DNA of 64,000 nucleotides from Zunongwangia sp. ESRF-bin46 (GTDB taxonomy: Bacteria > Bacteroidota > Bacteroidia > Flavobacteriales > Flavobacteriaceae). Of the stretch, positions 52,872 to 54,795 are shown piece by piece. The notes under the pieces are model-generated. The model saw only the letters and a list, made by a program, of their open reading frames with translations, was not told the origin of the DNA and did no database searches. The stretch is from assembly GCA_002631855.1 (NCBI GenBank), contig NTLF01000013.1, positions 248,001 to 312,000 of the forward strand, given 5' to 3'. A program made the position numbers and the translations under genes. Position 1 is the stretch's first letter, and each line of letters starts with the position of its first letter.

Positions 52872-53480
52872 TTATTGTTTCTTTTCTTGCACAAACATAA
52901 GACTTCCATAGATAATGTGCAGGACTCCAAAACCAAATATCCAAAACCAAAGCCCATATCCCGGAAGAGCTGCACAAATAAGACCTAAAATAATTTCAGC
53001 ATACCCTAAGTATTTTACATTTCCCAGCGTATATTTAGAAGCATTTACCAATGCCAAGCCATAAAAAACAAGCATTAAAGCACCGGTGAGTCCATAATGT
53101 TGGTTCCCTAATTTAATGAGTATGTAAATACCCCCAGTAACTAAGGGAATTAAAAAGTTAAGTAGTAACCTTTTAGTGGTCGCATCCCATATTTTTTCGT
53201 TGTTTTTTGTTGCTTTTCGGGTTGTTAATAAATACGCCGTAACCACACTCAATACAGCTACGAGTGCTAAAACCAGTAAAAGTAATTTAAAATTTTGGCT
53301 GTGGAGCGTTAGATATTCTCCGGGTTCAGGAAATAAAAATAGATAGGCGATCATGGCTCCTGCTATAGCATATATTCCTGCGAAGATTCCTGATAGGCCA
53401 CTTAGCGAAATAAACCTAGAGGACCGGTTCATTAGGTTTTTAATTTCACTGATATCTTTTAAATAATCTTTTTGTTTCAT
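52872..53480 (-). CDS. membrane protein of unknown function, first gene of the creD operon
   Basis: A 202-residue integral membrane protein with about six TM helices (for example GIYAIAGAMIAYLFLF, FKLLLLVLALVAVLSVVTAYLL and the final GLWFWIFGFGVLHIIYGSLMF). The N-terminus is charged and helical (DYLKDISEIKNLMNRSSRF). It is a conserved-looking Bacteroidetes protein often adjacent to a wHTH regulator, from memory only. It is followed immediately by the wHTH gene, suggesting a sensor-regulator pair, though this is inference. Confidence 0.75.
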   Translation of the reverse strand: MKQKDYLKDISEIKNLMNRSSRFISLSGLSGIFAGIYAIAGAMIAYLFLFPEPGEYLTLHSQNFKLLLLVLALVAVLSVVTAYLLTTRKATKNNEKIWDATTKRLLLNFLIPLVTGGIYILIKLGNQHYGLTGALMLVFYGLALVNASKYTLGNVKYLGYAEIILGLICAALPGYGLWFWIFGFGVLHIIYGSLMFVQEKKQ

Positions 53481-53558
53481 TTTTAAAGAACTTTGAAAAA
53501 CAAAGTAAATATAATTTTCTGAAATACGAAAACCAATTTTTTGTTAAAATTTAAAAAA

Positions 53559-53594
53559 ACAGGAAAAACCCTATTCAAAAACAGGAAAAACCCT
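53559..53594 (+). repeat. tandem 22-bp direct repeat upstream of small-RNA unit 1
   Basis: Two copies of a 22-bp sequence (53559-53580 and 53581-53602) match at 19 of 22 positions and share the core ACAGGAAAAACCCT. A single related copy (AGGAAAAAGCCCCT, 53732-53745) lies upstream of unit 2. The 22-bp period equals two helical turns and suggests an activator binding site. Confidence 0.65.
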
Positions 53595-53595
53595 C

Positions 53596-53626
53596 TTGAA
53601 ATACAAAATAAATCATCGCATCTTTA
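53596..53626 (+). promoter_or_regulatory. promoter of small-RNA unit 1
   Basis: TTG at 53596-53598, 20-bp spacer, CATCTTTA at 53619-53626. This has the Bacteroidetes geometry with two departures from TAnnTTTG. Confidence 0.6.
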
Positions 53627-53631
53627 CCTTA

Positions 53632-53710
53632 TAATTAATCAATGCTAAATTAATTGGGGAGTTAATAAAGCGATTAGATAGAAAGACCACTTTTTTAAGT
53701 GGTCTTTTTT
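53632..53710 (+). ncRNA. candidate small RNA 1 (about 75 nt)
   Basis: A unit with promoter, short transcribed part and a strong terminator (AAGACCACTT/AAGTGGTCTT then T run, about 53682-53710), and no ORF longer than three codons. It contains GGGGAGTTAATAA within a 21-bp block (53648-53668) that is repeated exactly in unit 2 at 53808-53828, followed by GCGATTA in both. The shared unpaired G-rich block may be the seed that contacts targets. Role is unknown. Confidence 0.6.
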
Positions 53711-53767
53711 ATTATAAATTTTCTTAAAAATAGGAAAAAGCCCCTTTCAATTAGGTGTTTTTACCTA

Positions 53768-53798
53768 TTGTATAGATTAATACTTTGCCCCATCTTTG
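53768..53798 (+). promoter_or_regulatory. promoter of small-RNA unit 2
   Basis: TTG at 53768-53770, 20-bp spacer, CATCTTTG at 53791-53798, one departure from TAnnTTTG and the same geometry as unit 1. Confidence 0.65.
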
Positions 53799-53803
53799 TA
53801 TTA

Positions 53804-53875
53804 GCTTAATTAATTGGGGAGTTAATAATAGCGATTACAAGGGCTGCCAATATTATGTTGACAGCCCTTTTTTTA
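53804..53875 (+). ncRNA. candidate small RNA 2 (about 70 nt)
   Basis: The second unit, spaced exactly 160 bp from the first when aligned on the common 21-bp block. It ends in a strong terminator whose stem is AAGGGCTG/CAGCCCTT (53839-53846 and 53862-53869). The terminator sequences of the two units differ while their 5' halves agree, so the shared part is under selection rather than a recent copy. No plausible ORF is inside. Confidence 0.6.
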
Positions 53876-53923
53876 TTCAGGAACTTATAATTTATTTTTA
53901 GCCAAATAATGTAGTTTAAAAGA

Positions 53924-53952
53924 AAACCTGCTTGAAGAAGGCAGGTTTTTTT
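53924..53952 (-). terminator. kdsA terminator
   Basis: AAACCTGC and GCAGGTTT flank a loop and, on the minus strand, are followed by a T-rich run. The hairpin is positioned just after the kdsA stop. Confidence 0.65.
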
Positions 53953-53976
53953 AATTTATAATATATTCAGTCTTGC

Positions 53977-54795
53977 TTATAATTCATTAATCGTCTTACG
54001 TATCGCCACCAAATCGGTCAATAACTTTTCAAGTTTTGCCAAGTCGAGCATATTTGCCCCATCGCTTTTTGCGTTTGCAGGGTCAAAATGGGTTTCGATA
54101 AATAGACCATCCACTCCAGTAGCAATACCGGCTCGGGCAATGGTACTGATCATATCTGGACGACCTCCAGTAACACCCACACTTTGATTGGGTTGCTGTA
54201 AACTATGCGTAACATCTAAAACAGTAGAGGCATATTGTTTCATAGTGGGAATTCCTCTAAAATCCACTACCATATCTTGATAGCCAAACATGGTTCCGCG
54301 ATCAGTGATCATTACTTTTTCATTTCCGCTATCGGTAACTTTTTTAGCGGCATGTTGCATGCTTTCAGGACTCATAAATTGTCCTTTTTTCAAATTGACA
54401 ACTTTTCCCGTTTCTGCAGCAGCTACAACTAAATCGGTTTGACGTACTAAAAAAGCGGGTATTTGTAAAACATCAACAAATTCTGCAGCCATAGCTGCAT
54501 CGCTACTTTCGTGTATATCTGTAACAGTAGGAACATCGAATGTCTCTGATACTTTCTGAAGAATTTTCAATGCTTTTTCATCCCCAATTCCGGTAAAACT
54601 ATCAATTCTACTTCTGTTGGCTTTTTTAAAACTGCCTTTAAAAATGTAGGGAATTTCAAGCTTATTGGTTATTGAAACTACCTTCTCAGCAATTCGCATG
54701 GCCATGTCTTCCCCTTCTATAGCACAAGGTCCGGCCAGTAAAAAAAAGTTATTGGAATTGGTATGTTTCAGTTTAGGGATTAAATCAAGTTTCAT
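53977..54795 (-). CDS. kdsA: 3-deoxy-8-phosphooctulonate synthase
   Basis: Makes Kdo 8-phosphate from arabinose 5-phosphate and phosphoenolpyruvate, in the pathway to the LPS inner core. The 272-residue chain fits the family. It has the AGPCAIEG motif near residues 21-28, the KGSFKKANRSR phosphate-binding segment, the FVDVLQIPAFLVRQTDL region and the TGGRPDMISTIARAG C-terminal loop. The -7 box TATCTTTG (54820-54813, minus) is upstream. The presence of KdsA shows that the organism makes Kdo-containing lipid A/LPS. Confidence 0.96.
   Translation of the reverse strand: MKLDLIPKLKHTNSNNFFLLAGPCAIEGEDMAMRIAEKVVSITNKLEIPYIFKGSFKKANRSRIDSFTGIGDEKALKILQKVSETFDVPTVTDIHESSDAAMAAEFVDVLQIPAFLVRQTDLVVAAAETGKVVNLKKGQFMSPESMQHAAKKVTDSGNEKVMITDRGTMFGYQDMVVDFRGIPTMKQYASTVLDVTHSLQQPNQSVGVTGGRPDMISTIARAGIATGVDGLFIETHFDPANAKSDGANMLDLAKLEKLLTDLVAIRKTINEL

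Follow-up and report, generated by a model that had tools for sequence, protein, structure and literature searches.

Probable tandem GGGG-loop small RNA genes in Zunongwangia and their candidate two-component control

What do two near-identical units encode when they stand side by side, apparently without a reading frame, in a genome of the Flavobacteriaceae, a family with few characterized small RNAs (sRNAs)? Such a pair is present in Zunongwangia sp. ESRF-bin46, in a 64-kb stretch of contig NTLF01000013.1 (64,000 nucleotides, the whole of the DNA analyzed; hereafter the window, in which positions are given). The two units lie in tandem on the plus strand, between the 202-aa gene of an HTH_34/CreD operon and a gene labeled kdsA, a name taken over from the earlier note as a label only. 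Each comprises two boxes 22–24 bp apart, a TTG-N20-CATCTTT(A/G) promoter, a 5′ hairpin whose loop reads GGGG, and a terminator. The earlier note had described twin plus-strand units with this promoter, a shared 21-nt repeat, and a 160-bp spacing, all of which were confirmed on reading: the cores, both containing AATTAATTGGGGAGTTAATAA, are 160 bp apart and 96% identical over 25 nt, and the longest exact direct repeat within 53480–54000 measures 21 nt, versus a maximum of 19 and a mean of 10.4 in 1,000 dinucleotide shuffles. As had also been claimed, no open reading frame (ORF) fits, none of at least 60 aa being found to overlap either unit. A coding role for the block was rejected on this ground and because the two cores differ by 1 nt in length.

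The boxes of unit 1 are two 22-bp copies of AAAAACAGGAAAAACCCT, read in the sequence at 53555–53576 and 53577–53598 (plus strand). This tandem repeat had been noticed before, with an identity of 19/22; the correct value is 20/22 (91%). Unit 2, previously credited with a single box, has two within 53726–53767 (plus strand), one in direct form (53726–53747) and the other, TTAGGTGTTTTTACCTA, in a degenerate inverted form (53751–53767). The promoter of unit 1, of the flavobacterial −33/−7 type, spans 53596–53626 (TTG at 53596–53598, N20, and CATCTTTA at 53619–53626), and that of unit 2 spans 53768–53798 (TTG at 53768–53770, N20, and CATCTTTG at 53791–53798), both on the plus strand. With the −7 consensus TAnnTTTG placed at −12 to −5, as given in the available text of PMC9723704, RNA 1 would start near 53631 and RNA 2 near 53803. 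From the −7 box and the terminator, we infer transcription of RNA 1 from 53631 to 53711 on the plus strand; RNA 2 would likewise extend from 53803 to 53873. The core hairpin of RNA 1 occupies 53644–53671 (loop GGGG at 53656–53659) and its intrinsic terminator 53684–53711, while the corresponding features of RNA 2 lie at 53804–53832 (loop GGGG at 53816–53819) and 53841–53874, all on the plus strand. Farther downstream, between unit 2 and the next gene, an inverted repeat with T-runs (53920–53952) is probably the terminator of that gene.

Fold and conservation indicate that the units are very probably sRNA genes. Compared with shuffles, the fold gave z values of −5.65 for RNA 1 and −3.61 for RNA 2. 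The inner hairpin consists of seven pairs and a four-base loop, and is enclosed by a GCU/AGC helix. Of 46 matches, 39 copies were aligned (alignment A5; three near-duplicates in L054, the doubtful L061 and L062, and the weak L053:63 and L003:1387 were left out). In these 39 copies, 96.0% of cells pair and four of the ten pairs show double-sided change, three of them in the outer helix; none of 500 shuffles reached these values, kinship among the copies being retained. The loop reads GGGG in 34 copies, GAGG in four, and GGGA in one, and is kept while the terminators vary. The earlier proposal of an unpaired G-rich seed is refined here: the G-rich block is not an unpaired stretch but makes up the loop of a conserved hairpin together with its flanks. 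Searched with Rfam release 15 at gathering cut-offs, the whole window returned only a tmRNA gene (RF00023; 46352–46751, minus strand) and no family in the units; at relaxed thresholds, the 37 weak matches within 53380–54000 were all below cut-off.

Within the genus, the exact core pattern is present in four of seven genomes. A looser reading located the twins in the ESRF-bin46 genome itself (G000) and in G001, G002, G004, G005, and G006, that is, in every one of the six genus genomes with a completeness of 90% or more; the seventh (G003, 55% complete) gave no match to the exact core pattern. Across the six genomes, invariant columns number 12 and 13 of 17 in the boxes of unit 1, 13 of 17 in the second box of unit 2, 7 of 8 in the −7 boxes, and 24 of 33 (with one row misaligned) and 28 of 34 in the cores. 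By contrast, only 4 of 19 (unit 1) and 1 of 19 (unit 2) columns are invariant in the −33/−7 spacers, and 1 of 13 in the stretch between the units. Boxes, −7 elements, and cores are thus kept while spacers diverge, the pattern expected from selection on promoter and RNA. This joint conservation of core, promoter, and boxes in related genomes upholds the earlier reading of paralogous sRNAs; a failure of core and promoter to be conserved together in relatives, which had been named as grounds for abandoning it, did not occur.

A covariance model (R1), built on nine copies from five genomes, was then applied to 397 genomes of the family. Matches were found in 51 genomes at E ≤ 0.05 and in 19 at E ≤ 1e-4, four of the latter having supplied the model. 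Many sRNA genomes carry two to four tandem copies (four in G068), and their sequence anatomy is that of several paralogous copies, each with its own promoter and terminator. A pattern scan of one genome per species for 84,980 species yielded 68 stretches, 35 of which matched a second model (R2) at E ≤ 1e-3; every one is titled as a genus of the Flavobacteriaceae (Ulvibacter, Altibacter, Cochleicola, Planktosalinus, Luteirhabdus, Thermobacterium, and Aequorivita are among them), Flavobacteriaceae, Flavobacteriales, or Bacteroidetes. Thirteen of these 35 are training contigs of R2, and L090, a near-duplicate, brings this number to 14. Two further stretches, L109 and L130, appear on reading to be members whose 5′ leader is longer, though their R2 scores are poor, and the remaining 31 look like chance matches. 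Those in Microcystis, Ferrimonas, Marinobacter, and others were set aside as such, with R2 E ≥ 0.02 and promoter anatomy absent on reading. In L048, L050, L052, L109, L130, and L131, some copies have a longer 5′ leader, of ~50 nt, before the core, with the promoter boxes shifted upstream accordingly. G001 seems to have one more sRNA of this design elsewhere (L390; G001:C1:416973-417581): on the strand opposite the pattern match, TACGTTTG precedes a GGGG-loop hairpin, and a terminator-like repeat comes after it.

Gene maps of 21 sRNA loci, 14 of which include a gene labeled kdsA, bear on whether the units are cis-acting leaders or attenuators and not trans-acting RNAs. A hairpin followed by a terminator is attenuator anatomy too; however, neighbors differ among the mapped loci, and what lies beyond the terminators is another unit in the case of unit 1 and a gene in convergent orientation in that of unit 2, leaving this reading highly improbable.

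A two-box pattern gave 51 matches in 19 of 22 genomes, versus 16 matches for the reversed pattern. Besides the sRNAs, box matches recur before one operon, encoding a 118-aa protein, a membrane protein, a HisKA_3 kinase, and a NarL/LuxR regulator, which was found by means of this tandem-box search. The operon lies near a gene that we take to be panB and, in several loci, is divergent from contractile-injection genes; Pfam recognizes Pvc16_N, tail sheath, or tail tube genes beside it in L171, L172, L210, and L211. Beside the regulator of G000 (L210), the injection gene row has a tail tube gene and no sheath gene in the stretch read (Pfam), unlike that of G001 (L211); the row of G002 (L212), judged from ORFs only, looks like that of G000.

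With a weight matrix derived from the sRNA boxes, a pair was detected before the 118-aa gene in 15 of 25 operon loci, including that of the ESRF-bin46 genome (L210; regulator at G000:C12). Because it was their boxes that had led to five of these loci, the independent figure is 10/20, that is, ten of the 20 loci from a regulator search blind to boxes have a pair no more than 200 nt upstream of the gene. The background is 3 of 215 other gene starts, and all three are known box loci. When the 25 leaders were read, several of the ten without a matrix pair were seen to have one strong box or a weaker pair, and the operons of the sRNA-bearing G193 and G048 (L219, L220) had no box upstream. On the sRNA side, a box of at least 9 bits was not found for three of the 39 copies (L056, L060, and L050:2851). 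The boxes are imperfect palindromes set at 22–24-bp steps, and some places have a series of more than two. The earlier suggestion of an activator on two-turn direct repeats thus gains from the recurrence of the box pair before the NarL-type regulator operon, and is refined in that the boxes themselves are imperfect inverted repeats. A box pair also precedes the gene of a 526-aa Por_Secre_tail protein (L177 2383; G000:C14:694882), a possible further member of the regulon.

Regulator matches of at least 350 bits, obtained with a profile (A4) built from four of the matching genomes, occur in 26 of the 397 genomes, including 14 of the 19 with strong sRNA matches. Co-occurrence with the sRNA gave Fisher values of 4e-15 by genome and 4e-9 by genus, phylogeny being allowed for only by the collapse to genera. 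In G048 and G193, the regulator scores ~317 bits and the whole operon is in place. Of the 26 genomes with a high regulator score, six lack an sRNA match at E ≤ 0.05, and no regulator match of at least 300 bits was found in the sRNA-bearing G094 (82% complete), G291, and G363. Judging from boxes and co-occurrence, the NarL/LuxR regulator of the 118-aa/HisKA_3 operon probably controls the sRNA units, and is the best candidate for their activator.

The boxes might instead belong to another regulator, such as the HTH_34 protein of the adjacent CreD operon, with the NarL-type operon merely a second member of its regulon. Indeed, the 202-aa gene of the HTH_34/CreD-type operon is found in 13 of the 21 mapped sRNA loci, often divergent from the sRNAs, and unrelated genes such as that of the Por_Secre_tail protein are also preceded by the box. 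In five of the 21 loci (L053, L056-L059), however, the array lies away from that operon, while most of the 25 operon loci read have boxes ahead of the NarL-type operon and orthologues of its regulator co-occur with the sRNA; control by another regulator, such as the HTH_34 protein, is unlikely on these counts. The NarL-type candidate would also fit a published suggestion. According to the available text of PMC8213781, 25.8% of eCIS loci have a GerE gene as a neighbor, 9% of these also having a histidine kinase, and a two-component system was suggested. The likeness is that of a LuxR-type regulator with a kinase adjoining injection genes; the difference is that the same text names no binding site or sRNA, so that the box and the sRNA link are added here. 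The 118-aa protein (L210 3982-4338 and orthologues, alignment A8) has no Pfam or NCBIfam match, and its structure model (pLDDT 78.9) has no PDB match at E ≤ 0.001.

Candidate partners of the loop were sought through its complements. A 9-mer complement gave 102 matches in six genomes, versus 58 for the reversed sequence, 11 of the 102 being antisense to sRNA genes; a 10-mer gave 55 versus 22 in nine genomes, with 17 of the 55 antisense to sRNA genes. Eighty of the other 91 9-mer matches were examined, the 11 of G005 being left out. Most of these 80 sites lie in open frames, and only one site outside a frame of at least 60 codons is common to more than one species. In the ESRF-bin46 genome, the exact complement TAACTCCCCA occurs six times: two occurrences are antisense to sRNA genes, three lie in open frames, and one falls in a non-coding leader, directly 3′ of the stop codon of a DegT-type aminotransferase gene and with its first base 32 nt before a Polysacc_synt_2 gene. 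UCCCCA is kept in this short intercistronic leader in six of six genus genomes. Of the 51 gene leaders in the window, none contains TCCCCA and one contains CCCC; for 270 gene leaders of other family loci, the counts are 0 and 18. A homologue of the Polysacc_synt_2 gene was found in 18 of 20 genomes searched, and the more distant homologues may not be orthologues. The leader in G045 has UCCCC; in the remaining genomes from outside the genus, the motif is loosened or, in G083, G283, G291, and G068, missing by reading.

Folding predictions put the site in a hairpin loop in each of the six genus leaders, the 5′ arm of the hairpin overlapping the end of the upstream coding sequence. In the six genus rows (alignment A7), 93.9% of stem cells pair. 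All changes are one-sided (eight cells to G-U, four broken), and the shuffle control and covariation thus speak neither for nor against the target stem. Alignment A7 replaced A6, in which G045 was misaligned and the count was 88.0% paired, below its shuffles. Computed pairing ranked the Polysacc_synt_2 leader first among the 68 leaders compared, for both RNAs, a circular result, given that complementarity was what had led to the site. We give slightly less than an even chance to this leader being a target of the sRNAs, and its repression by them is a tentative, rather doubtful proposal. A gene-leader hairpin in G045 (L401; G045:C36:394575-395183) reads AACU-CCCC-AGUU, complementary to the sRNA loop; its motif begins 29 nt upstream of the start codon, and it could be another loop-loop target. 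In G005 (L394; G005:C169:5320-5928), a hairpin with an 11-bp stem bears TTAACTCCCCAATAT in its loop (−18.6 kcal/mol for the folded stretch), and no gene start was recognized there.

A conserved GGGG hairpin might also serve as a protein-binding decoy, titrating CsrA-type or RRM-type proteins via the GGA of its loop, with copy number setting the dose. There is a precedent in Bacteroides, where an RRM protein binds a paralogous sRNA family, according to the available text of PMC11697453. Multicopy arrays and a loop conserved among variable terminators would suit such a role, and all 39 copies have a GGA in or around the loop, as in CsrB/RsmY-type decoys. CsrB-type RNAs, however, have many GGA loops each, whereas there is one such loop per RNA here, and the conservation of a loop complement in the leader discussed above also speaks against a decoy, which appears quite unlikely.

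Taken as a whole, the account of two-component-driven tandem sRNAs that pair in trans via a GGGG loop is considered reasonably likely. We infer regulator binding from the shared boxes and pairing from the conserved complementary loop: a signal would reach the HisKA_3 kinase, and the NarL-type regulator would then bind the box pairs, activating sigma-A-type promoters from two palindromic boxes, the nearer of which abuts the −33 TTG. All sRNA copies, of ~70–80 nt each, would be made together. The 5′ hairpin of each, followed by the variable terminator, would expose a GGGG loop closed by U-A, and this G loop would act in trans on UCCCCA-bearing C loops near start codons. In the ESRF-bin46 genome, kissing with the loop of the aminotransferase/Polysacc_synt_2 intercistronic hairpin would start a duplex 23–32 nt before the start codon, the effect of which would most likely be to lower Polysacc_synt_2 translation.

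The kind of system to which the units probably belong, a tandem multicopy sRNA under two-component control, is already known, while the family, the box, and the candidate loop target look new. A literature search of the texts available found no description of this marine Flavobacteriaceae GGGG-loop RNA, and a search with the core and box letters gave nothing relevant by title among the matches listed. As far as the available text of PMC4132741 goes, LhrC1-5 of Listeria is a multicopy sRNA that needs one two-component system (LisRK) and has a cell-surface target; LhrC differs in its phylum, in having CU-rich sites instead of a GGGG hairpin loop, and in binding Hfq, which was not found in the ESRF-bin46 genome. 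FopS/GibS of Bacteroides thetaiotaomicron are paralogous Bacteroidota sRNAs with a conserved 5′ seed, a variable remainder, and surface-glycan functions, whereas the word tandem is absent from the main text of the source (PMC11697453, seen in part). With the GibS covariance model, whose gathering score is 115, the units reached 23.0 and 21.4 bits, which is no match. Rfp18 of Flavobacterium psychrophilum is a structured sRNA conserved in the same bacterial family that affects exported-protein genes; in the available text of PMC9723704, its pairing is predicted to involve a third stem-loop, versus a core hairpin and terminator here.

With its regulator box predicted, its seed loop conserved, and one target open to testing, the family offers a complete circuit that can be checked. 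In a broader and rather unlikely extension, one two-component system would couple a contractile injection machine to the sugar coat: it would drive both the neighborhood of the machine and the GGGG-loop sRNA array, and the sRNAs, by kissing the UCCCCA leader loop of a nucleotide-sugar dehydratase gene, would thin or change the surface polysaccharide. If true, the circuit would provide a candidate binding site for the LuxR-type regulators that, in the available text of PMC8213781, are described beside contractile injection systems.
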